A program made the translations under genes and the position numbers. This document shows, piece by piece, positions 5,319 through 19,057 of a stretch of 21,268 nt of DNA. Numbering within the stretch: the first letter of the stretch is position 1; every line of letters begins with the position of its first letter. Below the pieces are notes generated by a model. It was not told where the DNA came from, ran no database searches, and saw only the letters and a program-made list of their open reading frames with translations. This stretch comes from a virus. The DNA lies in IMG/VR virus record IMGVR_UViG_3300025671_000657, positions 1 through 21,268 of that record; one strand, written 5' to 3'.

Positions 5319-5337
5319 TGTAAAAAGATTTGACATT
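5319..5337. promoter_or_regulatory. Dyad operator, site A
   Basis: TGTAAAAAGATTTGACATT, the reference copy of a dyad found four times in the window. Its right half contains the -35 hexamer of the following promoter. A related half-site, AATGTAAAAAG, lies at 5274-5284. Confidence 0.65.
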
Positions 5338-5357
5338 AGCAGTTTTTAGAATATTAT
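5330..5357 (+). promoter_or_regulatory. Promoter of the cysteine-rich gene, near-leaderless
   Basis: TTGACA (5330-5335), 16 bases, TATTAT (5352-5357). The expected transcription start is at about 5364, the A of the ATG, so the mRNA would have almost no leader. An overlapping TATAAA at 5355-5360 would place the start slightly inside the gene. Confidence 0.65.
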
Positions 5358-5363
5358 AAAAGT

Positions 5364-5825
5364 ATGAAAACTTTAACACTTAGAAACGACAAAAAGAAAC
5401 TAGAAAAACTTTTTATAGAAGCTATTAATCACAAAGGCAGAGAAAAGATAGCCAGAATCTATTCAAGAGGCAAAATAAATCTCGTATTAAAGAAGATAGG
5501 AATTAAGATTGAGTGCAAGCCACCCCTTAATTTTAATGCCTTTTGTAGATTTTGTAAAGGTAAATCACTTAATAACACAACTATTACCAAAAGTTATTGG
5601 TGGTCATTGTGGTCAATTTGTTGTAAAGATTGCAAACAAGAAGGAGAAAAAGAAGAATCTTATGAGTGTCAAAAAATAGATAGTGATTGTAATGATTGCG
5701 GATATTTTAAGAGAATTAAGGGATTAGAGGGCAATTGTAAGAAATTTAATAAATCAGTAACAGCAAGACCTAATTTTTGCAGTAGTTATGATTGTTTTGT
5801 TCACAGAAAAGATTTAAATTTATGA
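5364..5825 (+). CDS. Cysteine-rich, probably zinc-binding accessory protein
   Basis: A 153-aa protein with 12 cysteines in two clusters. The first is C61-R-F-C64 with C87-K-D-C90, a zinc-ribbon arrangement. The second is C109-N-D-C112 with C125, C139, C144 and H147, ending in a CFVHR motif that recurs in small phage proteins. The first 50 residues are basic and helical. The family and role are unknown; zinc-dependent nucleic-acid or protein binding is the cautious reading. It has its own promoter overlapping operator site A and sits between terminase and portal, outside the standard late order. The next gene starts inside its stop codon (ATGA). Confidence 0.75.
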   Translation: MKTLTLRNDKKKLEKLFIEAINHKGREKIARIYSRGKINLVLKKIGIKIECKPPLNFNAFCRFCKGKSLNNTTITKSYWWSLWSICCKDCKQEGEKEESYECQKIDSDCNDCGYFKRIKGLEGNCKKFNKSVTARPNFCSSYDCFVHRKDLNL

Positions 5826-6127
5826 AAATCACAGAGGAATTTATAAAATCATACTTTGATATTGAGGATGATAAAATAAAGATTACAGTTGCAGAAGGCT
5901 CTTTTTATTATCTATGCTCTTTAAAAGATTTATTTAAGGCTAAGTATGGGACTTGGGAGCTAATCAAGAAAATCTTAAAAAAGATAGTTGAGTGCAGAGG
6001 CGCACCTTCTCTCGCTGGCAGAAATTATGATAATCTATTGCTACTCCTAGCATTTATAGAAGAAAGGAATAATATTCTAGATTTGGAAATATGGCGAGAT
6101 AGGTTTAATAGTAAACATGGGATATAA
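5822..6127 (+). CDS. Unknown accessory protein, coupled to the cysteine-rich gene
   Basis: A 101-aa protein starting at ATG 5822, which overlaps the upstream TGA (ATGA). The alternative in-frame TTG at 5792 would lie entirely within the upstream gene and has no ribosome-binding site. It begins MKITEEFIKSYFDIEDDKIK; later segments such as WELIKKILKKIVE and NLLLLLAFIEERNNI look helical. No domain is recognised. Its first ten codons have a close copy at 6513-6542. It is probably co-transcribed with the cysteine-rich gene and shares its control. Confidence 0.65.
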   Translation: MKITEEFIKSYFDIEDDKIKITVAEGSFYYLCSLKDLFKAKYGTWELIKKILKKIVECRGAPSLAGRNYDNLLLLLAFIEERNNILDLEIWRDRFNSKHGI

Positions 6128-6157
6128 AAATCATTGTAACTTTAAACATAACAAAAT

Positions 6158-6484
6158 ATGAAATGTAAAGCCGATATTGAAGCAGAAAGATTTAAAAATT
6201 TAGAGCTTGGTTTTTATTATTGTTTGGTTAAAAAAACAAGGTTTATTAGCCAGGAAAAACTCGTTATCCAAGCAGATGAATTAGTGGAGGTTAGAGAGTT
6301 AGAATGCTCGATCGCAGGCAATAAGTTTTTTGCTCCTAGATACACCAATGAAAAAATAGTTGCCTTTGAGAAAGTTGAGCAACCTACTGCCTTTAAGAAA
6401 AAAAGAACAGTATTCGAAATGCCAGAGGAATTAATAAAACCATTTAATAAAATAATTAGTTCCATCTTTAGCGGTAGTCTTTAA
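6158..6484 (+). CDS. Unknown accessory protein
   Basis: A 108-aa protein beginning MKCKADIEAERFKNLELG. The middle appears beta-rich (YYCLVKKTRFISQEKLVIQA, then ELVEVRELECSIAG), and the C-terminus is helical and amphipathic (ELIKPFNKIISSIF). No family is recognised. It lies 30 bases downstream of the previous gene on the same strand, so it is probably part of the same accessory transcript. Confidence 0.6.
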   Translation: MKCKADIEAERFKNLELGFYYCLVKKTRFISQEKLVIQADELVEVRELECSIAGNKFFAPRYTNEKIVAFEKVEQPTAFKKKRTVFEMPEELIKPFNKIISSIFSGSL

Positions 6485-6512
6485 AAGACTAAATGCAAAA
6501 AGATTGGAAGCT

Positions 6513-6572
6513 ATGAAAACAACAAAAGAGTTTATAAAATCAATTGAAAACACTATAAGTAAAAACATTTGA
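6513..6572 (+). pseudogene. 19-codon frame resembling the start of the gene at 5822
   Basis: MKTTKEFIKSIENTISKNI, then TGA. The first ten codons match the 5' end of the gene at 5822 (MKITEEFIKS), with TTTATAAAATCA identical, and GGAAG precedes the ATG. It is probably a truncated duplicate; the promoter of the next regulator overlaps its end. It could still be translated as a leader peptide. Confidence 0.35.
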
Positions 6573-6576
6573 CATT
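6558..6576. promoter_or_regulatory. Dyad operator, site B
   Basis: AGTAAAAACATTTGACATT differs from site A at 2 of 19 positions. It overlaps the -35 of the promoter for the HTH gene at 6626. A weaker half-site, AATGCAAAAAG, is at 6492-6502. Confidence 0.6.
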
Positions 6577-6596
6577 TAAAATATAACTTGTTAAAT
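6569..6596 (+). promoter_or_regulatory. Promoter of the HTH regulator
   Basis: TTGACA (6569-6574), 16 bases, TTAAAT (6591-6596). The expected start at about 6603 gives a leader of about 23 bases before ATG 6626. Confidence 0.55.
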
Positions 6597-6625
6597 GGAA
6601 TTAGTTATTAATTTTTTTCTTGACA

Positions 6626-6856
6626 ATGGATATTAAAGAAGTATTAAAGACTAACAAAATCACGCAGCAAGATTTTGCTGATTATATGGGCTACACTAGG
6701 CAATCACTTTCAGGAACCTTAAGAGAGGGAAAAGAAAGAAAATCATTAATCAACAATCTAAAATTAGCAACGGCAGAGAAAAACGGCATATCGATTGACA
6801 TCACGGAAGAAGGACACACGATTGTTAGTTTTGATTTAACTAAGCTAGCAGTTTAA
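6626..6856 (+). CDS. Helix-turn-helix regulator, candidate controller of the dyad sites
   Basis: A 76-aa protein, MDIKEVLKTNKITQQDFADY followed by MGYTRQSLSGTLREGKERKS. This is a Cro/CI-type helix-turn-helix at about residues 11-40, with a short beta-like C-terminus (GISIDITEEGHTIVSF) that could form a dimer. I prefer ATG 6626 over the TTG at 6620, which is part of a TTGACA sequence. Operator site B overlaps its promoter, consistent with autoregulation, and three related sites lie at other accessory genes. This makes it the best candidate in the window for the protein that binds them, though that assignment is inferred. It is not obviously related to the two XRE proteins upstream. Confidence 0.78.
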   Translation: MDIKEVLKTNKITQQDFADYMGYTRQSLSGTLREGKERKSLINNLKLATAEKNGISIDITEEGHTIVSFDLTKLAV

Positions 6857-6859
6857 TTA

Positions 6860-6887
6860 TTGACATTAAAATAAAAATAGTTTATTA
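6860..6887 (+). promoter_or_regulatory. Putative promoter of the head module
   Basis: TTGACA (6860-6865), 16 bases, TTATTA (6882-6887); TATTAG at 6883-6888 gives 17. It lies 32 bases before the portal start. It has the TTGACATT core but not the full dyad of sites A-D, so it may be controlled differently. Confidence 0.5.
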
Positions 6888-6919
6888 GTTGATACTTAAA
6901 ATCAATTAAATTTCATTTC

Positions 6920-8320
6920 ATGGCTACTAGGACAAGTAATAATGAAGTGTTGGCTAACAGCTTAACTACATTAACAACCGCTCTTGGATTTCCTCAAGAA
7001 TTTGCAGAACAGTTAAGCCAGACAGCTACACTTGCAAAAAACAATAGAACTTATTTCATAAGTAACGATAGACCAACCCTAACCTATGCCTATACGACAC
7101 ACGGTATAATCCAAACACTTATTGATCAACCTATAGAAGATGCGTTCAGGGGTGGTATTGATATAGAATCGTCAGAATTAGAAGCAGATGAGATACAGCA
7201 GATACAGAACTATATAAAAGAAAATGATATTTTAGAAGAAGTAAAAGATTTAGCTAAATGGACTCGTCTTTACGGTGGTGGTGGAATGGTTATTAATACA
7301 ACTGGTAAATCAGATAAACCAATTAATATTGATGCTATAAATGAAGATACGCCGCTTTCTTTTCAAGCGGCTGACTTGTGGGAGTTACACCAAACTAATT
7401 TACCCGCTTATGGAGAGCAGAAAGCATACGTTAAAAGCGGATTCCATGAACCAGCTTTCTTTTATTATGGCAATAAGCTAGATGAAACAAGAGTATTAAA
7501 AACGAGAGGAAAAAGAGCGCCCTCATTAGCAAGGCCGCAGTTAAGGGGTTGGGGGATGAGTGAGGTTGAAAGATTAATCCGTTCACTTAATCAGTACCTA
7601 AAAAACAATGACCTTATTTTTGAGTTACTCGATGAGGCTAAAATTGATGTTTACGGAATACAAGGCTTTAATAAATCCTTATTAACCCAGGGAGGAACTG
7701 AGAAGCTTACTAAAAGGGTTCAAATGGCTAACAAAGTCAAGAACTATCAACAAGCTATAGTTAAAGATAAAGAAGATGATTACGATCAAAAGCAAATGAA
7801 TTTTGCAGGTTTATCAGAAATGCTACAGCAAATAAGAATTGGTATAGCAAGCGATCTAAAAATGCCATTAACTAAATTATTTGGCTTATCAACAGCAGGC
7901 TTTAGTAGTGGAGAAGATGAGATTGAAAACTATAATTCAATGATTGAAAGTCAGATAAGGGGTAAGTTTGATAATCTAATAATTCAGATGCTTAAACTTA
8001 TATGTCAAAAGCTATTTGGAGTTGTGCCAGATGATTTACAGATTGCGTATAAACCTCTAAGGATGCTTTCAGCAGTCGAAGAGGAGCAGGTTAAGACTTC
8101 ACAAGAAAATAGAATTTTAGCGATGTACGATAGGGCGTTAATGACCTCTGATCAGGTTATTGAAGAGATTAATCAATCCAATTTATTTGCTAGTGATTTA
8201 AAAAACGAATCAAGATCAGACTTTCCTATGCCTGCGCCAGCAAAGCCAAAGATGGATATAGAAACCAGCAAAACAACAAATTCAATTATTAATAAATTAT
8301 TTAAGAAAAATGGCAATTAA
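6920..8320 (+). CDS. Portal protein (DUF1073 family)
   Basis: A 466-aa protein matching DUF1073-type portals of contractile-tailed phages. The N-terminal part includes YAYTTHGIIQTLIDQPIEDA (about 52-71) and FRGGIDIES. The stem-like region has WTRLYGGGGMVINTTG (about 113-128), and the crown side has LKMPLTKLFGLSTAGFSSGE, a conserved motif of this family. The length is near the usual size. Twelve copies should form the ring at the capsid vertex through which DNA passes and where the neck attaches. No Acb1-type anti-CBASS domain, sometimes fused to DUF1073, is evident. The ATG has no clear ribosome-binding site. The next gene overlaps by 11 bases. Confidence 0.92.
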   Translation: MATRTSNNEVLANSLTTLTTALGFPQEFAEQLSQTATLAKNNRTYFISNDRPTLTYAYTTHGIIQTLIDQPIEDAFRGGIDIESSELEADEIQQIQNYIKENDILEEVKDLAKWTRLYGGGGMVINTTGKSDKPINIDAINEDTPLSFQAADLWELHQTNLPAYGEQKAYVKSGFHEPAFFYYGNKLDETRVLKTRGKRAPSLARPQLRGWGMSEVERLIRSLNQYLKNNDLIFELLDEAKIDVYGIQGFNKSLLTQGGTEKLTKRVQMANKVKNYQQAIVKDKEDDYDQKQMNFAGLSEMLQQIRIGIASDLKMPLTKLFGLSTAGFSSGEDEIENYNSMIESQIRGKFDNLIIQMLKLICQKLFGVVPDDLQIAYKPLRMLSAVEEEQVKTSQENRILAMYDRALMTSDQVIEEINQSNLFASDLKNESRSDFPMPAPAKPKMDIETSKTTNSIINKLFKKNGN

Positions 8321-8630
8321 TACAGATTATCAAAGCGTTGTAACATTAGGCAGACTATACAGAATAGGCATGGTAGAAGGAGGGCGTGGCCTAGGTCAAG
8401 CCTTAGCACCCCGTATAATGGCAAAGGGTGGTACTATGGATATTTATTTTGCTGATGCAACAGTTGACCCAACATCTTTGGCTGAAATGGCTCTTGTAAA
8501 ACAAGATACAACAGGTCAAGCAATAGAATCAATAGCAGACTACATGGCTATAGTTGAAAATCAAGCTACTGTAAATGAGGTTATTATCACTGGTGTTGAG
8601 TTAAAAGAAGATTTGGGTGCTATTTCTTAA
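8310..8630 (+). CDS. Unknown head-module protein
   Basis: A 106-aa protein, beginning MAINTDYQSVVTLGRLYRIG. The Gly-rich centre (GMVEGGRGLGQALAPRIMAK) and neutral, hydrophobic C-terminus (VNEVIITGVELKEDLGAIS) suggest a folded beta-rich structural protein, possibly a trimeric or decorating component. The start overlaps the portal gene, and the stop overlaps the next ATG by one base, so it belongs to the head operon. I do not recognise the family; a minor capsid or vertex protein is likely from position only. Confidence 0.65.
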   Translation: MAINTDYQSVVTLGRLYRIGMVEGGRGLGQALAPRIMAKGGTMDIYFADATVDPTSLAEMALVKQDTTGQAIESIADYMAIVENQATVNEVIITGVELKEDLGAIS

Positions 8631-9583
8631 TGAAAGAAAAACAACTAACACCAATAAAAGTAAATCCTAAGCTTGATGAGGAGCTAGAAAAACAAATATT
8701 AGCTTTCCTTTCAAAAGAAATATTTGCTCCTATTGTTGTTGAGATGAAGAAAAGCAAAAATATTCTATTTAATGCCAGAACAACCATTGAATCGGCAATA
8801 AAAAGTGGTAGAATACAATTTGCGGATGGTATTTTTAAAGGTGATTTTAATTCTAGTCTCGCAAAGGAGTTTAGAAGCCTTGGAATGAAATTTGACAAAA
8901 GGATTGAGGGTTATCGCAAAGAAATTGGTAAATTACCTATATCACTACAGGTTGCAATTACTCAAACAGATTCAGCTTATGTAGCAATGGCGGAGAATAT
9001 AATTAAATCTATTGAGTCAATTAATTATGATGAAGCTTTGGCAGAGCTTAATTTATCAAGTGCTTTTGATAAGGTCATTAAGTCAGTTGATAAAGACTTT
9101 GCTAGAACAGCAGCAAGTGTAATTGGCGTTAGTGTTGATTTAACTGAAAATCAAAAAGAAAGGATAGCAGACGAGTTTTCAGAAAATTTAAAGTTATATA
9201 TTAAAGATTTTGCAGATGAGCAAGTGTTAATCCTTAGAAAAGATGTTGAGGATGCAGTTTTTGCAGGGATAAGAGCAGAAGAATTACAAAAAACTATTGT
9301 TGGTAGATTTGGCGTTAGTGAGTCAAAAGCAAAGTTTTTAGCTAAACAAGAAATTTCTTTGTTGACTTCTAAATATAAACAAGCTAAATATGAAGATGTA
9401 GGAGTGCGTAAGTACAAATGGTCAATATCCAATGTTAGGACTAGACCAGATCACAGAGCCTTAAATGGAAAGGTTTTTAGCTTTGATGATCCACCTATTA
9501 CAAACCAAGATACAGGAGCTAGGAATAATCCAGGCGAAGATTTTGGTTGTAATTGTGTTGCTATACCTATTATTGAGATTTAG
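8630..9583 (+). CDS. Head morphogenesis protein, Mu F / SPP1 gp7 family
   Basis: A 317-aa protein whose C-terminal domain has the family signature: AKQEISLLTSKYKQAK (about 238-253), KWSISNVRTRPDHRALNGKV with the RxDHR motif, then NPGEDFGCNC and VAIPI at the end. The first 200 residues are mostly helical and variable, as is normal. Relatives act in early head assembly, bind near the portal and can be injected or help DNA delivery. It follows the portal and one small gene, the usual order. A minus-strand island interrupts the operon directly afterwards. Confidence 0.9.
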   Translation: MKEKQLTPIKVNPKLDEELEKQILAFLSKEIFAPIVVEMKKSKNILFNARTTIESAIKSGRIQFADGIFKGDFNSSLAKEFRSLGMKFDKRIEGYRKEIGKLPISLQVAITQTDSAYVAMAENIIKSIESINYDEALAELNLSSAFDKVIKSVDKDFARTAASVIGVSVDLTENQKERIADEFSENLKLYIKDFADEQVLILRKDVEDAVFAGIRAEELQKTIVGRFGVSESKAKFLAKQEISLLTSKYKQAKYEDVGVRKYKWSISNVRTRPDHRALNGKVFSFDDPPITNQDTGARNNPGEDFGCNCVAIPIIEI

Positions 9584-9596
9584 CCTCTATACCATA

Positions 9597-9668
9597 TCAT
9601 GAGCGATTCTTGATAAAGCCAATTATTAATAAAATAATTATTAATAATAATATATTAGTTATAAACAC
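9597..9668 (-). CDS. Possible 23-aa single-span membrane peptide
   Basis: Reading on the minus strand from GTG: MFITNILLLIIILLIIGF then IKNRS. It is one strongly hydrophobic helix with positive residues at the C-terminal end, a typical small membrane peptide. It overlaps the 3' end of the 59-aa gene by 14 bases in another frame, so it could be coupled to it. AT-rich DNA produces Ile/Leu runs by chance, so confidence is limited. Confidence 0.35.
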   Translation of the reverse strand: MFITNILLLIIILLIIGFIKNRS

Positions 9669-9834
9669 AATATAGTTTTTTACTTTTATAGTTACGTTTA
9701 ATAGATATTAGATCATCTATTTTGATGTCAAAGAATTTATGAGGACTATCTTTTAGTATTTTTACTCTAAGAGTTAAATAATCATCTTCATTTACTTTTG
9801 TTTCATTGTTTGATTCTAACTTATCTTTACTCAT
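9655..9834 (-). CDS. Minus-strand 59-aa accessory protein, unknown
   Basis: A protein that begins MSKDKLESNNETKVNEDDYL, continues TLRVKILKDSPHKFFDIKID and ends KKLYCVYN. The first 18 residues are polar and probably disordered; the rest alternates hydrophobic and charged residues like a small beta/alpha domain. No family is recognised. It lies head-to-head with the protease-scaffold gene, against the direction of the whole structural operon, and has its own good promoter and operator site C. Those are features of phage cargo (moron) genes expressed independently of lytic growth. Exclusion or host modification is possible but unproven. Confidence 0.62.
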   Translation of the reverse strand: MSKDKLESNNETKVNEDDYLTLRVKILKDSPHKFFDIKIDDLISIKRNYKSKKLYCVYN

Positions 9835-9866
9835 AAAAAATTAATATAGTTACTAGGACAAAACCT

Positions 9867-9894
9867 ATATTAATTAAGAAATTATTAATGTCAA
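9867..9894 (-). promoter_or_regulatory. Minus-strand promoter of the 59-aa accessory gene
   Basis: On the minus strand, TTGACA (9889-9894), 16 bases, TAATAT (9867-9872). The predicted leader is about 26 bases. A second TTGACA lies 12 bases further upstream (9901-9906), inside operator site C, with TAATTT at 9879-9884 as a possible -10. Confidence 0.65.
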
Positions 9895-9898
9895 CAAC

Positions 9899-9919
9899 AA
9901 TGTCAAAACTTTTTACATT
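9899..9919. promoter_or_regulatory. Dyad operator, site C
   Basis: The minus strand reads TGTAAAAAGTTTTGACATT, one mismatch from site A. It sits between the minus-strand promoter and the protease-scaffold start at 9928, and could affect both directions. Confidence 0.65.
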
Positions 9920-9927
9920 TTATTTAA

Positions 9928-10944
9928 ATGATTAAAAACGGACTAGATAATCCAAGATTAAGAGCAGAAACATTCAAGGCAAGATTCCTTGAGGCTGCGG
10001 TTGTTGAATACAATGACGAGAGGGTTTTAATAAAACCAGAAAACTTAATGAAGATGGCTCTTAAGTTTAAGGGTGCAAAAGTGATTATAGATCACAAAGA
10101 TGTTACAGCGGAAAACGCTAATGAAATAGTGGGATATATAAACAATATCTGGATAGGTGATGATGGTTGGGCTTGGTGTGATTTTACTGTAAATGATGCA
10201 GAAGCAATAAATCTTATTAACAGGGGTTACTCTGTTAGTTGTTGTTATGTAGCAGTAACTAGCGGAAATGGTGGTACTAAGAATGCAGTACCTTACAACC
10301 GTGAAGTGGTAGACATAGAAGAGAATGACGAAGTCACTCACTTGGCTATTGTGGAAAATCCTCGCTACGAGGATGCAATTATTTTAAAAAATTCAATTAA
10401 AAATAAAATGAAAAATATATTTAAATTTACTTCTAAAAAAGAGACAAAAGAAAATTCAGTAAAAGAATTGGATTTAGAAAATTCTTTTATTCAATTAAGC
10501 AATGGCTCTGATCTTCCTATGGCTGAAGCTATCAAGATATGTGAAAATGAAGCTAAAAAAGAAGAAGAGAAAGAAAACGAGTATCACGAAGACAAGCCTA
10601 AGATCAATGATGATACTGAAATTGAAGTAGGCGGCAAAATGATGAAAGTTTCTGAAATGAAAAAAATAGTTGAATCAGCTAAAAAGAATGAAGAAGACGA
10701 GGCTAAGAAAAATGCTGAGGAAGAAGAGGAAAAGAAAAAAGAAAAAGAAAATGCTGAAAAGGAAGAAGCTGAGGAAAAGAAGAAAGAAGCCAAAAAGAAC
10801 TCTATTGATGCTAAAAAGATAGCAGAAGACACAAAGAAGTTTGAAAATGGCAAAAAAATAGAATCATCAAAAGTAATTACAGATAGATCAAGATTTGAAT
10901 TAGGTCGTCTTGCTTATGGTGAGCCTCAAAAAGTTACTAAATAA
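9928..10944 (+). CDS. Prohead protease (DUF2213) with C-terminal scaffold-like region
   Basis: A 338-aa protein in two parts. Residues 1-155 match DUF2213, with candidate catalytic residues H56 (IDHKD), S102 or S104 (GYSVSC) and H138 (VTHLAIVENPRY), the pattern of herpesvirus-type assembly proteases. Residues about 200-310 are a highly charged Glu/Lys coiled coil (DEAKKNAEEEEEKKKEKEN and similar), as expected for a capsid scaffold. A Met at 161 (10408-10410), at the junction, could start a separate scaffold as in lambda C/Nu3. The protein would shape the prohead and then be degraded. No clear ribosome-binding site precedes the ATG; operator site C ends 9 bases upstream. Confidence 0.85.
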   Translation: MIKNGLDNPRLRAETFKARFLEAAVVEYNDERVLIKPENLMKMALKFKGAKVIIDHKDVTAENANEIVGYINNIWIGDDGWAWCDFTVNDAEAINLINRGYSVSCCYVAVTSGNGGTKNAVPYNREVVDIEENDEVTHLAIVENPRYEDAIILKNSIKNKMKNIFKFTSKKETKENSVKELDLENSFIQLSNGSDLPMAEAIKICENEAKKEEEKENEYHEDKPKINDDTEIEVGGKMMKVSEMKKIVESAKKNEEDEAKKNAEEEEEKKKEKENAEKEEAEEKKKEAKKNSIDAKKIAEDTKKFENGKKIESSKVITDRSRFELGRLAYGEPQKVTK

Positions 10945-10967
10945 TATTAATTCATTAAATAAAAAAA

Positions 10968-11417
10968 ATGACACAGATTTTAAACCAAACTAGACCAACT
11001 TCGGAAAAGGGGATGCTAGACTTAGCGATTAACTGGAATTTGTTTGATTGTAGAATTGACCCAGCTTCTGTTGCTGATTTCTCAAATGCAAATGGCTTTG
11101 CTCTTAAAATTGTAGGCGTTGCAGGCAAATCAATCATGGTTGATTTAGCTACTCTAGCCGCTGATGATATTTTTGGCTTTGTTCCTTATGAAGTGAAAAC
11201 AAATAGCTATGCTGCAGGAGATTCTATCAGAGCTGCTTCATTCTTTAGTGTAATGAAAATGGAAGCTTCGGCTGCTATTGCTAGAGGTGCTGATTTAGAA
11301 ATAGTACCAACTGGCAATAAAGTAGCTACTAATTCGGGCGGTACTTCAATTGGCCGTGCTTTAGACATTGCTACCGCTGATGGTGATTTAATCAGAGTAC
11401 TTATTAAAACACAGTAA
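10968..11417 (+). CDS. Capsid decoration / head-fibre-like protein
   Basis: A 149-aa, beta-rich, nearly neutral protein lying directly before the major capsid gene, the usual place for decoration proteins or DUF2190-type proteins. The C-terminal half has small-residue strands and a closing IGRALDIATADGDLIRVLI, resembling the usual ending of those families (IGxAL...GDLxRVLL). The N-terminus (MTQILNQTRPTSEKGMLD) is polar and may bind the capsid. The role is assigned from position and fold-like pattern, not a firm family match. Confidence 0.65.
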   Translation: MTQILNQTRPTSEKGMLDLAINWNLFDCRIDPASVADFSNANGFALKIVGVAGKSIMVDLATLAADDIFGFVPYEVKTNSYAAGDSIRAASFFSVMKMEASAAIARGADLEIVPTGNKVATNSGGTSIGRALDIATADGDLIRVLIKTQ

Positions 11418-11442
11418 TTTATTAATTTAACTAGGACAAAAA

Positions 11443-12537
11443 ATGGACAATAAAACTTTAAATATGCTAAAAGCAATTCATGATGGCAGACAACTTTCTC
11501 ATGATACTTTTGCAAACTCAATAATTAATACAAAGGCTGGACTTGAGGGAAAAGCAAATATTCTTTGTAATGCTGCACCAGCAGGCTATGAGCAAACTAT
11601 TTCAACATTAACGGATATTAAAAGAGATGTTATTTCTCAAGTATTCTATACAGTTGGTGAGAATCAAGGCGGCTTAGGTGCATTCGTGCCAATTAAAACT
11701 GGTGAAGGTGCATTTACTGAAGAGTCTTTATATTACAGAAACTTTAAGCTAGATGGCAACTTCGCTTCTGGAATCATGGGTCAAGGCGCGGGTACTAGAA
11801 AAGGCAAAACTAATGTTGGTTATGATTCAGTTCGTTTGCCTAACTTCTTCTGGTCAGGTGAAATGGATTACTCTATAATTGAATTAGAGCAAGCTAATAG
11901 AAACTTAGGCTCAGTAATTAACTTAATCACTCAAAGAGAGGAAGCAAGAAAAACTGAATGGGATATTGGCATTCAAGATACTGCTTTAGTTGGTCAACCA
12001 GAGTTAGCTGATATTGACGGTTTATTAACTTTATCAGGAATTACGACTGATGTTTCAACTTTGACTAAGCCATTATCTGCAATGACTTCAACGGAAATAA
12101 ATACTTTTGCTAAAAATATTGTTAAAGTTTACTTCCAAAATACAAATCAAACAAGAATGCCAGATACTTTCTGTATTCCTACTGCTGATTTCTTGGGATT
12201 ACCATCTTTTGTAGCTGAAAATCAACCTTTGATTTTTAAGTCAACTTTCTTAGAGCAAGCGTTTAAAGAAGCTACTCAAAATCCTAACTTTAAAGTTACT
12301 CATACAGCTTACAACAATAAAGATTTTGTTCAAAATCCTTTAGGCGTAAACAGATATGTTCTTTACAGAAACGATTCTAAGACTTTAGAAATGAACTTAC
12401 CAATTGATTACACAACTACAACTTTTGGAACTGTAAACAATTTTGACTTCTCTAATGTAGCTTATGGTCAATTCTCAGGTATTATTGCTAAGAGACCACA
12501 AGAAATTTACTACTTAGATCACGCGCAACCAATTTAA
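11443..12537 (+). CDS. Major capsid protein (DUF2184 family)
   Basis: A 364-aa protein with the hallmarks of DUF2184 capsid proteins in DUF1073/DUF2213 phages. An N-terminal arm is followed by VGENQGGLGAFVPIKTGEGA (about 68-87), a loop with MGQGAGTRKGKTNVGYDSV, the FWSGEMDYSIIELEQA region (about 138-153) and a C-terminal domain ending in AKRPQEIYYLDHAQPI. An HK97-type fold is expected. AGGA about 10 bases ahead of the ATG is a reasonable ribosome-binding site, fitting high expression. The prohead protease is encoded two genes upstream. Confidence 0.9.
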   Translation: MDNKTLNMLKAIHDGRQLSHDTFANSIINTKAGLEGKANILCNAAPAGYEQTISTLTDIKRDVISQVFYTVGENQGGLGAFVPIKTGEGAFTEESLYYRNFKLDGNFASGIMGQGAGTRKGKTNVGYDSVRLPNFFWSGEMDYSIIELEQANRNLGSVINLITQREEARKTEWDIGIQDTALVGQPELADIDGLLTLSGITTDVSTLTKPLSAMTSTEINTFAKNIVKVYFQNTNQTRMPDTFCIPTADFLGLPSFVAENQPLIFKSTFLEQAFKEATQNPNFKVTHTAYNNKDFVQNPLGVNRYVLYRNDSKTLEMNLPIDYTTTTFGTVNNFDFSNVAYGQFSGIIAKRPQEIYYLDHAQPI

Positions 12538-12548
12538 TATAGGAAAAT

Positions 12549-12752
12549 ATGGAACTTATAAATCAAACTAAAACAAATTTCTTAATTGCAAAAGATAAAG
12601 AGGGTAAAGATATTTTCTTTAGAATTGGTAAAGTTATGAAGCTTGATGAAAATTTAGCTAAAACTTTATTGAGATACGAAGGTATTGATACTGTTGATTC
12701 TTTGAAAGACAAAGCAGAAACGATAGTAAATAAAGCTAAGTCTAAAAAGTAA
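12549..12752 (+). CDS. Small head protein, unknown
   Basis: A 67-aa protein, MELINQTKTNFLIAKDKEGK onward, with a short beta-like N-terminal half and a helical Lys-rich C-terminus (LKDKAETIVNKAKSKK). AGGA precedes the start, and its stop overlaps the next ATG by one base. Small proteins at this position, between major capsid and DUF4054, are frequent. The function is not known; a head-completion helper is possible. Confidence 0.62.
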   Translation: MELINQTKTNFLIAKDKEGKDIFFRIGKVMKLDENLAKTLLRYEGIDTVDSLKDKAETIVNKAKSKK

Positions 12753-13327
12753 TGTCTTGTGATAATCCAATTATCCAAGCACTCACGCCAGAGGATTTTA
12801 AAAATCAATTCTGGCGTGATTTTACCTTTATTAACACTTGGTTAGTAGGCACAACCTACAACACGGGAAACCAAGTTTTTTATGATGTTAATAAAAGGTT
12901 CTATCAATGTTTGAATGATGGGGTTATTGGCACTCTTCCAACTGTAACTACAGACTGGAAAGAGATTAGTAATGTAGGTTTAGTTAGTGATTTAGATATT
13001 ACTAATGCTTACGCCGAGGCATGTATTACTTTTAATGATGCTCTTTTTGATGATGATGACGATATAGTATTAGGTTATTTATATCTAGCAGCTCATTATT
13101 TGGTAAATGATTTAAATGCTGGTGGTCAAAATAGCTCTCAAGCGGGTTTTGCTAACTCAAGAAGTGTTGGCAATGTATCTGAAAGCTATTCTATACCGCA
13201 ATGGCAATTAGACGATCCAATATTAAGTTTTTATGCAGGGTCAAGTTATGGTAGAAAATACCTTAACTTGATTTTGCCAAGATTAACAGGTAATATAGCA
13301 ACCGTTGAAGGAGCTACAACGCCATAA
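12752..13327 (+). CDS. Head-tail connector, DUF4054 family, with carbohydrate-binding-like insertion
   Basis: A 191-aa protein. The outer parts match DUF4054 adaptors: an N-terminal ALTPEDFKNQFWRDF, then NAYAEACITFNDALF, a LYLAAHYLVNDLNA helix (about 109-122) and the closing PQWQLDDPILSFYAGSSYGRKY. Between them, at about 27-72, lies WLVGTTYNTGNQVFYD, a FYQCL strand and a terminal W, spaced like a family 5/12 chitin-binding module. The protein probably joins portal and neck. The inserted module may simply be a surface decoration. A 10-bp stem-loop lies in the first 25 codons. Confidence 0.8.
   Translation: MSCDNPIIQALTPEDFKNQFWRDFTFINTWLVGTTYNTGNQVFYDVNKRFYQCLNDGVIGTLPTVTTDWKEISNVGLVSDLDITNAYAEACITFNDALFDDDDDIVLGYLYLAAHYLVNDLNAGGQNSSQAGFANSRSVGNVSESYSIPQWQLDDPILSFYAGSSYGRKYLNLILPRLTGNIATVEGATTP
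12783..12819 (+). other. Strong stem-loop inside the start of the DUF4054 gene
   Basis: TCACGCCAGA (12783-12792) and TCTGGCGTGA (12810-12819) pair perfectly over 10 bp with a 17-base loop that itself contains GATTTT/AAAATC. TTTTA follows. It could attenuate transcription after the capsid genes or act as an mRNA processing site. Confidence 0.55.
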
Positions 13328-13803
13328 TGCCAAGTGATGTAAAAGTAACATCTAATTTAAAAGGATTAGAGCAGTTACAAGAGAATTTAAAAACAAATCT
13401 AGTTGCAAAACTAGGAATATTTGCGGATAAAAACGCAAGAGGAGATGGAGCATTAACAAATGCAGAAATAGGAGCCAGACATGAATTTGGCGTAATAAGT
13501 GAAGGATTGCCAAGAAGGTCATTTTTAAAAGACCCTATTGAGATAAAAAGAAAAGAATTATTAGCAACTGCCAATAAGGTTATTAAGGCTAATATAAATA
13601 AAGAGGGTGGAGCAGAAAAGATATTTGAATTAATTGGTATTGCTGGCGAGGCTATCGTTCAAGAAGCTTTTGAAAGTGGGGGATTTGGAACATGGCAACC
13701 ACTAGCGCAAAGTACGATTGATGCAAAAGGAAGTGAACAAATTTTGATTGAGACTTCACAATTAAGGAAGTCAATAATTAGTAAAGTAGAAAAAGGGGAT
13801 TAA
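13327..13803 (+). CDS. Neck / tail-completion protein (virion morphogenesis type)
   Basis: A 158-aa protein with the typical ALTNAEIGARHEFGV segment (about 42-56) followed by GLPRRSFL (about 59-66), a motif seen in HK97 gp10-like and Mu gpG-like proteins. Near the C-terminus are TWQPLAQSTIDAKGS and ILIETSQLRKSI, the usual end of phage virion morphogenesis proteins. It should sit at the head-tail interface and help terminate or attach the tail. Starts and stops overlap or abut neighbouring genes, in standard order. Confidence 0.8.
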   Translation: MPSDVKVTSNLKGLEQLQENLKTNLVAKLGIFADKNARGDGALTNAEIGARHEFGVISEGLPRRSFLKDPIEIKRKELLATANKVIKANINKEGGAEKIFELIGIAGEAIVQEAFESGGFGTWQPLAQSTIDAKGSEQILIETSQLRKSIISKVEKGD

Positions 13804-14139
13804 ATGCCAATACCTAAGATACAAACTGCTTTAAATGGTTGGGAAAGTCCAATAACCTTGATTAAAGTTACTCAATCAGTAGTTGATTATGTAACGGTAG
13901 AGACTAAAGAAAATATAAGTTTTCAAGGTGTTATACAGCCCTTAACAGCAGAAGCTTTACAAATAAAACCCTTAGAAATGAGGAGCTGGGAATGGTTGAT
14001 GATACATACAAGAATAAGTCAAGAGATATTTACTAATGACTTAATAGAGTACGAAGGCAAGCAGTACAAAGTAATGTTTGAAAAGAATTATAGTTTAAAT
14101 AACTACTATGAATATCATTTAGTTAAGAATTATGAATAG
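13804..14139 (+). CDS. Head-tail joining protein, unknown family
   Basis: A 111-aa protein starting directly after the preceding stop. It is beta-rich (SVVDYVTVETKENISFQGVI) with a conserved-looking WEWLMIHTR and the strand pair LIEYEGKQYKVMFEKNYS, resembling the small beta-barrel joining proteins that lie between the gp10-like protein and the tail terminator. Its place supports a neck role. The end overlaps the next gene by 8 bases. Confidence 0.65.
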   Translation: MPIPKIQTALNGWESPITLIKVTQSVVDYVTVETKENISFQGVIQPLTAEALQIKPLEMRSWEWLMIHTRISQEIFTNDLIEYEGKQYKVMFEKNYSLNNYYEYHLVKNYE

Positions 14140-14638
14140 AGAGCCAATAAAAATAATAGGTGATATTTTAAAAAACTGCATGAATTTAACGGATGATCAA
14201 ATTTGGATTTATAACCAAGATTTTAAGATTCCTGAAACGAGCGGTTTATTTGTAGTGTTAGATTACGGAACAGAAGAAGATTACGCAAATGTTAATGAGT
14301 TTATACCAGCTGCGGAAGGTGTAGAAGGAGCGCAACAAAATATATCTGTTATGACAAAAGAAAATTACATAGTAAATCTTATGTCAAAGAATGATGAAGC
14401 GAGATTAAGAAAACATGAAGTGTCAATGTCATTGAATTCTGATTTTTCACAAGATCAGCAAGGGCTTTATCAATTCCAAATTGCAAGGGTAAAAAATAAC
14501 TCTAGTAATTTATCTTCTTTGGAGGGTGCAGGGATGTTAAACAGATTTGCAACTAATATTACCTTAACAGCTCATTACAGTAAAACTACTGATACGGTTT
14601 ACTATGATGATTTTACTAATCAAATTAATACAGAATAA
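14132..14638 (+). CDS. Neck / tail terminator-like protein
   Basis: A 168-aa protein resembling gp12-like neck terminators (LIC_12616 type) of contractile-tailed phages. It has an N-terminal helix (IKIIGDILKNCMNL), a beta strand LFVVLDYG (about 39-46), the NISVMTKENYIVNLMSKN segment (about 70-87), an Arg/His-rich helix LRKHEVSMSLNSDFSQDQQG and a final strand ITLTAHYSKT. Such proteins cap the tail tube and sheath at the head side. It immediately precedes the sheath gene, as expected. Confidence 0.75.
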   Translation: MNREPIKIIGDILKNCMNLTDDQIWIYNQDFKIPETSGLFVVLDYGTEEDYANVNEFIPAAEGVEGAQQNISVMTKENYIVNLMSKNDEARLRKHEVSMSLNSDFSQDQQGLYQFQIARVKNNSSNLSSLEGAGMLNRFATNITLTAHYSKTTDTVYYDDFTNQINTE

Positions 14639-14640
14639 AT

Positions 14641-16116
14641 ATGTCAATAGATATTGTAAATTTTATTAATATTTCAGTAACTAACACGCCAGCAGGCTTA
14701 CCAGATGCTAATGTTAATAGCTTAGGATTATTCACTACTGAAAGTCCATCTAATGTTGATGAGTTTAGAATTTATGTAACACCAGAAGCAGTAGCAGAAG
14801 ATTACGGCACAAATTCAGTAACTACACAAATGGCAAATAATGTTTTTGCTCAAAGCCCTAACTTGCTTAGTGGAGATGGCAGGCTTGTTATTATACCCTT
14901 AGTGAACTCAATTAGTGCGATTGCGGGTAACTTTACAGGCGCAGATATTACAGCCAATTTAGCAGCTTTACAAGCAGTTGCAGATGGTGATATTAGAGTT
15001 GTTCTAAACGGAAACAATATTGATTTAACTGATTTAGATTTTACTAATACATCTAGTTTTGCTGATATTGCCCAAATACTACAAAGCAAACTCACTGATG
15101 TTGTAGTAACTAGTAAAGCAACAGGATTTGATCTTGATTCTAAGAAAGTTGGCACAACTTCAACAATAGATTTAGTTCAATTACCAGCAGGCGCAGGAAC
15201 AGATTTAAGCGTTGCAGGTTTATTTAATGTTGCAGCAGGAACGCCAACAGCAGGCAATAACGCACAAGGCGAAAGTTTAGTTGATGCAATTACAAGAACA
15301 GAGGAGCAAGTTAATTACACAGGTGTAATAACTGATTTAGAAATGGAAGATGCAGTAATTTTATCAACTGCTTCTGCTATTCAATCAAGAGATATGATTT
15401 TTGTTCATCAATTCACTAGCACAGAAGATTTAGAGCCTACAACTGGTATTTGTTCAATTGTTAAAAATGCAACACAAACTAAGACAAGATGCTTATATTA
15501 TTCTGACCCTTCAACTGCTAACTTAGTCAAGGCTTCATATGCAGGGCGTGGATTTAGTGTTAATTTCGCAGGTTCTAATACTACCATGACAATGAACTTA
15601 GAAACTCTTGCAAATGTAGTACCAGATACAAAAATTACTCAAACTATCTTTGAAAAGGCAAAGACAGCAGGCGCAGATTTATATGGCGATGTGCAAAGTT
15701 CACCTATTGTTGTTTCAAATGGTGCAAATCAATTCTTTGATAGCGTGTACAATCAGATCTGGTTTAAACTAGCTCTTGAAGTTGCAGGCTTTAATTACCT
15801 AAAACAAACTAATACAAAAATCCCTCAAACTGAAACAGGAATGGATGGTTTAAAAGGTGCTTATGCTAAAGTTTGCGATAGAGCAATTACAAATGAAATG
15901 TTTGCAGCAGGCAATGAATGGAACGGTTCTACTTTTGGCAATCCAGAAGACTTTAAGCGCAACATTATAGATAAAGGTTACTATATATATAGCCAGCCAA
16001 TTGCACAACAATCACAAGCAGATAGAGATGCAAGAAAAGCTCCTTTGATACAGATTGCAGGCAAAGAAAGTGGAGCAATCCACTCTTCAACTATGAACGC
16101 TCTTATTGAAAGATAA
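14641..16116 (+). CDS. Tail sheath protein (DUF3383 family)
   Basis: A 491-aa protein matching DUF3383, the contractile sheath of this phage type. The N-terminus MSIDIVNFINISVTNTPAGL is followed by NSLGLFTTESP and FRIYVTPEAVAEDYGTNS (about 40-57). The centre has repeated Thr/Ala-rich strands; the C-terminal part has GVNGxx-like conserved stretches such as GMDGLKGAYAKVCDRAITN and YYIYSQPIAQQSQADRDARKA, where the QADRxxRxAP motif is characteristic. It forms the contracting outer tail layer, so the phage is a myovirus-type particle. The tube gene follows directly. Confidence 0.9.
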   Translation: MSIDIVNFINISVTNTPAGLPDANVNSLGLFTTESPSNVDEFRIYVTPEAVAEDYGTNSVTTQMANNVFAQSPNLLSGDGRLVIIPLVNSISAIAGNFTGADITANLAALQAVADGDIRVVLNGNNIDLTDLDFTNTSSFADIAQILQSKLTDVVVTSKATGFDLDSKKVGTTSTIDLVQLPAGAGTDLSVAGLFNVAAGTPTAGNNAQGESLVDAITRTEEQVNYTGVITDLEMEDAVILSTASAIQSRDMIFVHQFTSTEDLEPTTGICSIVKNATQTKTRCLYYSDPSTANLVKASYAGRGFSVNFAGSNTTMTMNLETLANVVPDTKITQTIFEKAKTAGADLYGDVQSSPIVVSNGANQFFDSVYNQIWFKLALEVAGFNYLKQTNTKIPQTETGMDGLKGAYAKVCDRAITNEMFAAGNEWNGSTFGNPEDFKRNIIDKGYYIYSQPIAQQSQADRDARKAPLIQIAGKESGAIHSSTMNALIER

Positions 16117-16139
16117 TATTAACTTAAATTAAATAAATT

Positions 16140-16592
16140 ATGGCTACTCAAAGTTTAACAGGTTCAGATACAATATCTATTGATGGCATACCATTAATTG
16201 ATTTAGGAGATGGAGATGTTGGCTCTTTAACTTATCCTAATGAATTAGTGGGTGTTAAGACTGGTAAAAATGGCAATTCAATCTTTGCCTTAAATGAAAC
16301 TGGCGACCAAGCTGACTTAGTTCTAAGAGTTCTAAGGGGTTCTAAAGACGATAAGACTTTAAACTCTAGGCTAATTTCTATGAAAGCAGATTTTGCAGGC
16401 TTTACAACTCTTACGGCTCAAGTAATTAAAAAAGTTGGTGATGGTCAAGGAAATGTTACTAATGACATCTACGATTTATCTGGCGGCGTTTTCTCAAAAA
16501 GAGTTGAAACAGTCTCAAATGTAGAGGGTAATACAGACCAATCACTAGCTATTTACAATATTAAATTTACTAACTCACCTAGAAGCTTATAA
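16140..16592 (+). CDS. Tail tube protein (DUF3277 family)
   Basis: A 150-aa protein, the expected size for a DUF3277 tube subunit. The order is SLTGSDTISIDGIPLIDLGD at the N-terminus, the strand LTYPNELVGVKTGKNGN, then LVLRVLRGSKDDKTLNSRL and VSNVEGNTDQSLAIYNIKF near the end. Hexameric rings of this protein form the inner tube of the contractile tail. The ATG lacks an obvious ribosome-binding site. Its stop overlaps the tail chaperone start by one base. Confidence 0.88.
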   Translation: MATQSLTGSDTISIDGIPLIDLGDGDVGSLTYPNELVGVKTGKNGNSIFALNETGDQADLVLRVLRGSKDDKTLNSRLISMKADFAGFTTLTAQVIKKVGDGQGNVTNDIYDLSGGVFSKRVETVSNVEGNTDQSLAIYNIKFTNSPRSL

Positions 16593-17038
16593 TGGAATTT
16601 AAAACAGAAAGTGGCGCAGAAGTAGTAATTAACATGGCTGATTTTATAGATGCTTCAAGGCTGCGTGTTGCAGTTCTTGGAGCTATAAAGGAAAGCGGAG
16701 TTGAAATATCTAAGGTGGATATTGAGAAATTGCTATCAGGTGTAAAAGAGGACATGGGAGCAGCAGTTAAAAGTGGGGCTTTAGATTCTTTATTAGATAT
16801 GGTTATCTCTTTAGATTGTAGCGAGAAAGTAAATAATGAGATATTTAATTGCTTAAAAAGATCTACTTACAATAGCGAGAAGATAACCAGAGATACTTTT
16901 AATGAACTAGAGGCAAGAGGTGATTATTACCATATTGTTATTATGTGTCTTAAGGTAAATCTAGCCCCTTTTTTCAAAACCCTCTTTTCAAAGTTGAGCG
17001 CACTCCAACTGATGAAAAAGCAAGAGAGCCAAAAATAA
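16592..17038 (+). CDS. Tail assembly chaperone, short (G-like) form
   Basis: A 148-aa helical protein between tube and tape measure, the position of tail assembly chaperones such as lambda gpG. It begins MEFKTESGAEVVINMADF and contains LRVAVLGAIKESGVEIS and FNELEARGDYYHIVIMCLK. Near its end the mRNA has a run CCCCTTTTTTC where ribosomes can slip back one base to make a longer product (see the fused form). Chaperones of this type coat the tape measure before tube polymerisation. Assignment rests on position, size and the frameshift arrangement rather than sequence family. Confidence 0.8.
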   Translation: MEFKTESGAEVVINMADFIDASRLRVAVLGAIKESGVEISKVDIEKLLSGVKEDMGAAVKSGALDSLLDMVISLDCSEKVNNEIFNCLKRSTYNSEKITRDTFNELEARGDYYHIVIMCLKVNLAPFFKTLFSKLSALQLMKKQESQK

Positions 17039-17217
17039 AGATTAATGCCGATGAGGCAGATGTTATTTTATTAAGGTTAGCAAAGGCAGGCTACGGAGGG
17101 GGCAATCCAGAAGTAATAAACAATATGAATATTACTTGGATTATGAAGATGATAGAATATGAAGGCTTTTGTAGTGAATATGAAGAAGAATATCATAATT
17201 TAAATAAGAATGGCTAG
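16592..17217 (+). CDS. Tail assembly chaperone, -1 frameshifted (G-T-like) form
   Basis: If ribosomes slip by -1 at TTTTTTC (16969-16975), 128 codons of the short form are joined to 80 codons of the -1 frame, giving 208 aa. The extension reads QNPLFKVERTPTDEKAREPK, then IKINADEADVILLRLAKAGY and on to a TAG at 17215-17217. This frame is open, protein-like and has no good start of its own, and it overlaps the tape-measure start by 8 bases. Lambda G/GT and many other phages use this same arrangement. The T-domain would bind the tape measure or tube subunits. Confidence 0.82.
16969..16975 (+). promoter_or_regulatory. -1 ribosomal frameshift slippery site
   Basis: T TTT TTC in the zero frame fits the X XXY YYZ rule; an overlapping C CCT TTT at 16966-16972 fits it too. 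The zero frame ends at 17038 and the -1 frame stays open to 17217. Confidence 0.78.
16992..17010 (+). other. Possible stimulatory stem-loop after the slippery site
   Basis: AGTTGAG (16992-16998) pairs with CTCCAACT (17003-17010) with one bulged C and a CGCA loop. It begins 16 bases after the slip site, somewhat further than usual. Confidence 0.4.
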
Positions 17218-18661
17218 CATAGGACAATTATTTATAGAATTAGGCGTAAAAGCCGATACACAACAGATTAATAAAGTTGATGCTGGCGTTAAGTCATTGA
17301 GAAGTAACTTATTGCTAGTTTCTGCTGCTTTTACTGGTGCGGTAGTTGCTTTAGATAGATTTGTTAATAGCGCACTAAAAGGCGTTGTTTCTCTTCAAAA
17401 TCTTAATGCTCAAACAGGATTATCAATCCAAAAACTCCAGCAATTCCAACAAGCAGGGCAATTATCTAATCTTGCATTAAGCGCAGATCAAATAGCCCAG
17501 TCAATAGGTAATGTACAAAAGAACATAGCAGCCATAAGAATTGGTCAAGGTGATATTTCACCTTTTCAATTACTAGGTGTTGATGTAGCTGGTCAAGATG
17601 CTTTTGGTGTAATAGAGCAATTAAGAGGAGCTATACAAGGTTTAGACCCTGCAACAGCCACTAATCTAATTAGTCAAATAGGATTATCACCAGACTTTAT
17701 TAATATTCTTAGATTGAGTAGAAAGGAATTTGAGCTATTAAGTGAGAACACTTTTTTAAATCCAAAACAAAGAGCTGACATTGACAAGGTAGGAACATCA
17801 ATTAAAGCCCTGCAATTAAGATTTAAAGCTTTAAAAGATCAAGCAGTAGCAAAGATTGCGCCAGAACTAAATAAATTAGTTCAACAATTCTTTAAATGGA
17901 TGAAAGATAATGGTAAAGCCATTATTGAGGTCATTGCAGGAATGGCGAGAGGATTTGCCAAGTTTGCACAAGCAATAGGAAATGCCTTTAGTCTAGTGAC
18001 TCAATTTATTGATGGTTTGGTAGGAATGGAAAGAGGCATTAAAATATTAGCTGGTGCTTTTGCATTATTAACCTTGAGTTTTTCACCATTCTTGGCAGGT
18101 TTGGCGGCTATTATTCTTTTGTTAGACGATATAGCAGTTTTTAGAGCTGGTGGCGATAGTGTTATTGGTGAACTTGTAAAAGCTTTTGAAGATTTACCAG
18201 ACTTTGCAAAGATACTAGGAATAGGAGCAGGAGGAGCAACACTTTTGACATTCCTCGGTAGTTTGACAAAGGCACTAGGAGCTTTAGCAATTCCTGCTGC
18301 TGCTTTAGCAATTCCTTTGGCTTCGGTGGTTGCTTCTCTAACATTCCTTGCAAATGCGCCAGAATTTGGCAAGAAGATAGCAGAAGCTATTGATAAAACA
18401 GAAGGTGGTCAAAAACTAGGAGATGCTTTATTAGACATAAGAGATACCACTAGAACAGGAGGAATAGGGGCAGGTCTTGCAATTGGTGGATTACGTGCGG
18501 CAGAGGCATTAACAGGAATCAATATAAACAACAATAATACATACAATATAAATGGATTAAATGCTCAAGAAATAGGTGGCGAGGTTCAAAGGTCGCAAAA
18601 AGTAATTAATCAAGAGGCTTTAAACAGGGTGCAGGCTTCACAAGGCAATAGTGCTAAATAG
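17210..18661 (+). CDS. Tail tape measure protein
   Basis: A 483-aa protein. The N-terminus (MASIGQLFIELGVKADTQQI) and the following helical, Gln/Ala/Leu-rich region are typical of tape measure proteins. Two hydrophobic stretches lie at about 277-312 (ILAGAFALLTLSFSPFLAGL and on) and about 335-382 (TLLTFLGSLTKALGALAIP and on), which may insert into the host membrane at DNA entry. The C-terminus is Asn-rich and polar. At roughly 1.5 angstrom per residue it would set a tail of about 70 nm, short for a myovirus. It starts inside the end of the chaperone extension, and its 3' end overlaps a convergent minus-strand gene by 8 bases. Confidence 0.9.
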   Translation: MASIGQLFIELGVKADTQQINKVDAGVKSLRSNLLLVSAAFTGAVVALDRFVNSALKGVVSLQNLNAQTGLSIQKLQQFQQAGQLSNLALSADQIAQSIGNVQKNIAAIRIGQGDISPFQLLGVDVAGQDAFGVIEQLRGAIQGLDPATATNLISQIGLSPDFINILRLSRKEFELLSENTFLNPKQRADIDKVGTSIKALQLRFKALKDQAVAKIAPELNKLVQQFFKWMKDNGKAIIEVIAGMARGFAKFAQAIGNAFSLVTQFIDGLVGMERGIKILAGAFALLTLSFSPFLAGLAAIILLLDDIAVFRAGGDSVIGELVKAFEDLPDFAKILGIGAGGATLLTFLGSLTKALGALAIPAAALAIPLASVVASLTFLANAPEFGKKIAEAIDKTEGGQKLGDALLDIRDTTRTGGIGAGLAIGGLRAAEALTGININNNNTYNINGLNAQEIGGEVQRSQKVINQEALNRVQASQGNSAK

Positions 18662-18971
18662 TATTAAATTGTAAAGAAGTGATGGGATCAATACAATAAT
18701 ATTCTACTACACCAGTTTTGATGTCAGTCAAGATCATACATTCTATGTTTGCGGCATTAGTGCATCTTGATATAGAGATAAAAGCATTCTTTTTGTTTGG
18801 TTTAGTGTGTACGGAGCATGTTAATTGTGATTTAAAGACATAAGATCGTATATTATTATCCATAGGATTCCCACTAGCTTTAAAGGCTTTATCCCAAAGG
18901 GTGTTTGGAGTGGCAAAAGAACCATTGCAATAAAAAGTAAAAAATAATAAAGTTATAAGTAATTTCTTCAT
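18654..18971 (-). CDS. Exported cysteine-containing accessory protein (moron)
   Basis: A 105-aa protein with a clear signal peptide: basic MKK, a hydrophobic core LLITLLFFTFYC and a probable cleavage after SFA at residue 20. The mature part of about 85 residues has four cysteines (52, 70, 78, 93), enough for two disulfides in the periplasm. It begins TPNTLWDKAFKASGNPMDNN and ends CIDPITSLQFNTI. No family is recognised. It lies on the opposite strand between tape measure and Dit-like genes, with its own promoter and operator site D. Position, export and separate control fit a cargo gene acting on the host envelope, for example against superinfection; this is inference. Confidence 0.8.
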   Translation of the reverse strand: MKKLLITLLFFTFYCNGSFATPNTLWDKAFKASGNPMDNNIRSYVFKSQLTCSVHTKPNKKNAFISISRCTNAANIECMILTDIKTGVVEYYCIDPITSLQFNTI

Positions 18972-19004
18972 TTTTGTTTTTTATTTAAATTAATAACAAT
19001 TACA

Positions 19005-19032
19005 TTATTAGACTGGAATTTATAAAAGTCAA
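19005..19032 (-). promoter_or_regulatory. Minus-strand promoter of the exported protein gene
   Basis: On the minus strand, TTGACT (19027-19032), 16 bases, TAATAA (19005-19010), about 35 bases before the start at 18971. Site D lies 4 bases upstream of the -35. A TTTACA inside site D is an alternative -35, with TAAATT 16 bases on. Confidence 0.55.
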
Positions 19033-19036
19033 ATAA

Positions 19037-19057
19037 AATGTAAAAACTTTTTACATT
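19037..19057. promoter_or_regulatory. Dyad operator, site D (perfect palindrome)
   Basis: Ten-base arms AATGTAAAAA and TTTTTACATT flank one central C, a perfect inverted repeat. Its core matches sites A-C. It lies between the divergent starts at 18971 (-) and 19066 (+). Confidence 0.7.

Follow-up and report, generated by a model that had tools for sequence, protein, structure and literature searches.

The window analyzed here, the whole 21,268-nucleotide stretch of the IMG/VR viral fragment IMGVR_UViG_3300025671_000657, carries four dispersed copies (S1 to S4) of a repeated element, a dyad of the form TGTNAAANNNTTTNACA. A fifth copy, S5, is found in G004 (IMGVR_UViG_3300034418_008733; 32,374 bp), a contig near-identical to the window that continues past its right end. 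The sites, the promoter-like sequences beside them, and the adjoining genes are the following.

5317-5337, plus strand: S1, dyad TTTGTAAAAAGATTTGACATT, whose right half doubles as the -35 element of the predicted promoter at 5330-5357
5330-5357, plus strand: predicted S1 promoter, TTGACA-N16-TATTAT, matching at 11 of 12 positions; best promoter match of 5000-10100, and the same promoter is present in G002
5364-5825, plus strand: gene for a cysteine-rich protein of 153 amino acids (aa), the first gene after S1; replaced in G002/G003
6556-6576, plus strand: S2, dyad TAAGTAAAAACATTTGACATT with the -35 element of TTGACA-N16-TTAAAT; HTHc gene 49 bp further on
6626-6856, plus strand: HTHc, a predicted helix-turn-helix (HTH) protein of 76 aa, the candidate regulator of the dyads
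6860-6887, plus strand: promoter-like site of the portal gene, TTGACATT, with no dyad; internal control
9655-9834, minus strand: 59-aa cargo gene, predicted to be driven from S3
9867-9894, minus strand: predicted S3 antisense promoter, TTGACA-N16-TAATAT, 10 of 12
9899-9919, minus strand: S3, dyad AATGTAAAAAGTTTTGACATT, 8 bp ahead of the plus-strand ATG at 9928
9928-10944, plus strand: structural gene in the protease position, between Mu-F-like and capsid-region genes; its ATG abuts S3
18654-18971, minus strand: exported protein of 105 aa with a signal-peptide-like start and cysteines; cargo of S4
19004-19032, minus strand: predicted S4 antisense promoter, TTGACT-N17-AATAAT, 10 of 12
19037-19057, palindrome without strand: S4, AATGTAAAAACTTTTTACATT; the ATG of the Dit-like gene is 8 bp further
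19066-19854, plus strand: Dit-like tail protein gene (PF21821, 1e-14); its ATG abuts S4
G004 18867-18887, outside the window: S5, AATGTAAAAACTTTTTACATA, ending 1 bp ahead of the start codon of a baseplate-J gene (identified by Pfam)

The 19-mer TGTAAAAAGATTTGACATT is matched at 5319-5337 (plus, 0 mismatches), 6558-6576 (plus, 2), 9899-9917 (minus, 1), and 19037-19055 (minus, 2), while S4 read on the plus strand (19039-19057) matches it with 3 mismatches. These positions and mismatches agree with those in a preliminary description of this DNA. By chance 0.04 matches are expected, the mean in shuffled windows, where five never occurred. As also described there, TTGACA lies within the right half of S1, S2, and S3; S4 has TTTACA instead and forms a perfect 21-bp palindrome. 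The arms are spaced as TGT-N11-ACA in four of the five window and G004 sites, and as AGT-N11-ACA in S2. All dyad sites are intergenic, and wholly intergenic 21-mers make up only 4.6% of the window.

The preliminary description had proposed a motif scan of the complete genome and relatives, with frequent random occurrence as the outcome that would refute it. A weight-matrix scan of G004 gave five sites of at least 27 bits, the next best place reaching 15 bits; the same scan found no site in the early region of G003. Among 2.9 million IMG/VR viral contigs, AATGTNAAAANTTTTNACATT occurs in nine, seven of which belong to this phage group. We take the matches in G016, within a coding region, and in G018, an unrelated contig with a single match, as chance. 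The near confinement of the dyad to one phage lineage points to a phage-encoded binder rather than a widespread host regulator. Among the relatives, no further repeated dyads rose above shuffled controls, apart from a three-member cluster in L048.

Relatives that are 80-90% related in protein cover the sites piecewise: G002/G003 contain S1 and S2, G012 contains S3, and G015 contains S4 and S5. Judging from sample of origin and end points, a single phage type probably accounts for G003, G012, and G015 as separate pieces; they were kept unjoined. All five places keep the dyad in both lineages (G004 on the one hand, G002/G003, G012, and G015 on the other). The more distant relatives G007, L014, and L015 were judged only over the stretches they cover, and there HTHc, the dyads, and the reverse-strand cargo are jointly absent.

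The dyads stand in two arrangements relative to promoter-like sequences. At S1 and S2 the dyad overlaps the -35 element of a predicted sense promoter, with its center at about -37 from the predicted start in both lineages. At S3-S5 the strand opposite to that of the late genes carries a second TTGAC, 12 bp past the one in the dyad, and a -10-like hexamer 16-18 bp further. With their centers at -49 to -52, these three dyads lie directly upstream of sigma70-like promoters that are antisense and placed at boundaries of late modules, approximately one helical turn away from the position of the sense class.

The antisense promoter scores at S3-S5 are 10-11 of 12 in the window lineage, G015, L078, and L010; matched random sequence attains 11 or more in 0.36% of trials (P = 0.0036), and the sense strand at the tested sites scores 8-9 in seven of eight cases and 10 in one. 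The S5 antisense promoter scores 11 of 12 in three lineages (G004, G015, and L078), with no open reading frame (ORF) driven from it. A consensus promoter scan ranks the sense promoter at S1 and the antisense promoter at S3 among the best, with a total match count no higher than in shuffles, and also detects the S4 antisense promoter. The predicted +1 of S1 falls at about the ATG of the cysteine-rich gene, whose transcript is possibly leaderless.

Next to S2 lies the gene for HTHc, and the distance of 49 bp between them is the same in the window and in all four related contigs covering the region (G001, G002, G003, and G004). One dyad is therefore located at the candidate regulator's own predicted promoter. 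The helix-turn-helix part is nearly invariant across these close relatives. The structural model of HTHc is HTH-like (predicted local distance difference test score 74), with helices H3-9, H14-21, H25-34, and H38-52, and sequence profiles compared with PDB entries retrieve the PezA, PbsX-family, and CylR2 regulators (E 0.002-0.003).

The genes beyond the promoters are less constant than the sites. Through promoter and dyad, the S3 block is identical at 90 of 94 positions between the window and G012, and about 80 bp are almost unchanged in G012/G001, where the promoter would drive another gene: in place of the 59-aa gene, G001 and G012 have an ORF for a 29-aa hydrophobic peptide (MNFNTILLVIILICIIEVYIEIEKIIPQQ in G001), while L010 and G019 have no ORF of annotated size at this place. 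Around S4 and the start codon 51 of 56 bases match between the window and G015, compared with 61 of 110 columns further out, and the S4 cargo in G015 consists of one or two genes. The S3 and S4 cargo genes share features of morons, being predicted to have their own promoter, reverse in orientation, placed between structural genes, and exchangeable. No accessory ORF stands beside S5 in G004, G015, or L078.

The claim that the sites mark exactly the accessory genes thus fails: S5 abuts a baseplate gene with no accessory ORF, and S3 is kept with swapped cargo or none, so that there is no one-to-one correspondence between dyads and accessory genes. The observation that the portal-gene promoter (TTGACATT at 6860) lacks the dyad holds. 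What survives of the proposed phage regulon over cargo is a lineage-specific dyad placed at promoters and at constant spacing from the HTHc gene; its match with accessory genes does not survive. The earlier interpretation is thus supported in part; what the dyads have in common is their place at embedded promoters, of which three are antisense, rather than any link to cargo itself.

We propose that the dyad is the operator of a small phage-encoded Cro/XRE-like protein, most likely HTHc, which controls promoters embedded in the late operon; judged from sequence, we give this reading about an even chance. An HTHc dimer would bind TGTNAAANNNTTTNACA and, through S2, regulate its own promoter. At S1 and S2 the bound operator would cover the sense -35 element and block RNA polymerase, so that binding should repress. 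At S3-S5 a third half-site (TTGAC) overlaps the antisense -35 element, and binding could therefore repress, or activate at low dose. The embedded promoters, three of which run against the operon, would share one switch, with S3 and S4 as docks for exchangeable side genes and S5 as an antisense promoter alone. Encoded in the late operon itself, HTHc would turn the embedded promoters down once late transcription begins.

If correct, this would link a regulator and several embedded late promoters, antisense ones included, through one operator, and would provide a direct test case for how a phage escapes silencing by its own antisense transcription. Antisense promoters shut by a late gene product would be the interesting case. 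The dyad may also serve as a sequence tag for locating exchangeable cargo sites in related phages.

A different emphasis, which we regard as unlikely, is that the S3-S5 antisense promoters serve antisense transcription itself. Their RNAs would act against late genes, either excluding related phages or restraining premature late expression; HTHc, as a product of the late operon, would shut them and thereby let the phage escape its own antisense RNAs, and the cargo genes at S3 and S4 would be later passengers.

Several observations weigh against HTHc as the operator-binding protein and against the promoter assignments. The joint absence of HTHc, dyads, and cargo in distant relatives counts few independent lineages. 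In clade B (G019 and L085-L089), HTHc is 45-47% identical, the strict dyad was not found before its gene, and only weak dyad forms, frequent by chance, occur at the S3 and S4 positions. L045 keeps the exported gene and a promoter-like TTGACA and has lost the dyad. The dyad forms in L010, L046, L048/G019, and L078 are individually weakly above chance (P 0.05-0.27) and were not used as strong evidence. The Pfam match of HTHc is weak (HTH_3, phage transcriptional regulators, 21 bits, below the curated cut-off of 23), and its model has no significant match among PDB structures, the non-significant top foldseek hits being restriction-modification controller proteins such as C.Kpn2I and C.Esp1396I. 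AT-rich DNA readily yields -10-like hexamers. Finally, other small HTH genes (317-526, 1453-1644, and G004 31815-32102) are alternative candidates for the regulator; the gene at 1453-1644 is flanked by a different dyad of its own, and its product is therefore less likely to bind S1-S5.

The element could instead be the upstream part of a strong promoter, a consensus -35 element (TTGACATT) behind an A-tract UP-like sequence, with incidental symmetry. In agreement with this, TTGACATT is a general -35 element of the phage, found at 1396, at 6860, and in the divergent region of G003, and G019 repeats AAAAAAAGACTTGACA at three early promoters. However, the mirrored TGTNAAA half is missing from the promoters at 1396, 1625, and 6860, S4 is a perfect palindrome over 21 bp, and at S3-S5 the promoter uses the second TTGAC, leaving the dyad outside the core promoter and yet conserved. 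We consider this explanation rather unlikely. Somewhat less likely again, the dyad could be the site of a late activator comparable to Ogr of P2, which would bind TGT-N11-ACA and turn on the adjoining promoters late. P2-like late promoters carry a repeated TGT-N12-ACA dyad, and one site can serve two divergent late operons (PMC3931495). The present dyad is likewise a TGT...ACA repeat in the late region, the S3-S5 centers are at an activator-like position, and the S1 gene product is cysteine-rich, with CX2CX22CX2C. Against this, the spacing is N11, not N12, at all five window and G004 sites, S1 and S2 overlap good -35 boxes that need no activator, and our candidate is a predicted HTH protein, not a zinc finger. 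No Ogr/Delta protein with CX2CX22CX4C is found; for the 153-aa cysteine-rich protein Pfam gives no match at E<=1, and its gene is missing from G002/G003 although S1 and S2 are kept there.

That the dyads are linker sequences at module boundaries, kept for homologous recombination between phages and not regulatory, would account for their location, for the near-identity of the S3 block between lineages with a swapped gene just beyond it, and for the unrelated large terminase gene across S1 in G002. It would not account for the joint conservation of promoter hexamers, half-sites, and constant spacing to the predicted start. Moreover, S1/S2 and S3-S5 have only the dyad in common, which is too short for ordinary homologous exchange, and G007 has similar modules and no dyad; we find this quite improbable. 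An RNA hairpin controlling translation from structural-gene leaders is suggested by S3-S5 ending 0-8 bp ahead of structural start codons; S1 and S2, however, have another distance and orientation to the start codon. The dyad varies between A and C at its free position 4 with no compensating change in the other arm, and these one-sided changes (S3, S4', S5') would break an RNA stem and fit a DNA dyad. Rfam gives no match in the window. We rejected the hairpin, a very improbable reading, on the one-sided changes.

Known systems resemble this arrangement in part. In Cluster A mycobacteriophages (L5, Bxb1), one repressor acts on many dispersed stoperators, one of them at its own promoter, and site and repressor co-vary between phages (PMC6550527). 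These stoperators are asymmetric 13-bp sites, oriented with transcription, mostly off promoters, present in up to ~30 copies, and block elongation (PMC6550527). The dyads are similarly dispersed sites of one phage, with one at the candidate regulator's promoter, whereas they are symmetrical, number only five strong sites in the 32 kb of G004, and all lie at promoter-like sequences, three of them beside antisense promoters. One operator common to sense and antisense promoters within a late operon, the promoter of the probable regulator among them, would be a variant of dispersed phage operators.

HTHc resembles small XRE/Cro-like and C-protein regulators in size and HTH arrangement and differs from C proteins in that it is not in a restriction system and that its sites are dispersed over late genes. 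The small, reverse, exchangeable cargo at S3 and S4 follows the general pattern of morons that lie antisense to the late genes of prophages under a promoter of their own (PMC7067206). In contrast to morons, a terminator scan detected no terminator-like site after either cargo gene. We are aware of no group of morons in which separate promoters are joined under a single phage-specific operator, no search aimed at this having been made. The predicted antisense promoters without an ORF, at S5 and at S3 in L010/G019, would be comparable to that of STnc6030, an antisense RNA inside late genes of prophage BTP1 (PMC7067206). For BTP1, no operator that switches STnc6030 off has been described, and the authors call the escape mechanism undiscovered (PMC7067206).

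The exported protein belongs to a family of ~100-110 aa encoded between the tape-measure and Dit-like genes in L044, L045, L046, L047, and L048, most members having four cysteines. The gene is reverse-oriented in most relatives. In L047 it is co-directional with the late genes, beginning where the tape-measure gene ends and overlapping the Dit-like gene; a dyad is absent, and a promoter would not fit. At S4 of G015, an additional 99-aa gene (L044:5632-5934, minus strand; no Pfam match) lies between the dyad and the exported-protein gene. The S5 region of G004 (L027:18793-18887) has ~50 bp more than that of G015, with hairpin CCCACAATTTCTTGTGGG and TACTAGGACAAA; the complement of a 12-mer from this region (TTTGTCCTAGTA) also follows the S3 antisense -10 element, at the same 4-nt distance. 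The extra DNA is perhaps what is left of a former cargo gene.

Two promoters, at 1396-1425 (TTGACATT...) and 1625-1655 (TTGACATA...), flank the HTH gene at 1453-1644. Within their spacers there is another repeated dyad of different sequence, ATACTATGTAGTAGTAT and ATACATAGTATTAGTAT, probably the operators of this gene itself. In G019 (IMGVR_UViG_3300024581_002496, read reversed), a 44.6-kb relative, the exact promoter upstream part TAAAAAAAGACTTGACA occurs at three early genes (27402, 32167, and 34467), with a variant before the portal gene. A hexapeptide-repeat acyltransferase-like gene (1992-2618), flanked by the early HTH gene and that of the small terminase, is a possible accessory gene for surface modification. 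By blastp, no match is detectable between the large terminase of G002/G003 (L040/L029; phages 86% related to that of the window) and its counterpart in the window, which reads as an exchange that ends just before S1.

No integrase was found in the seven records searched. Two genome-contig scans for a host gave only a 48%-identical portal gene, in an uncultured metagenome-assembled genome contig of 49% G+C. Judged by the portal protein, the closest isolate is Bdellovibrio phage phi1422 (43%). The late region closes with a gene for a 587-aa protein (L028:14700-16463; G004 27074-28837) containing five stretches of DUF285 (PF03382, 4.8e-86), a family described from Mycoplasma.

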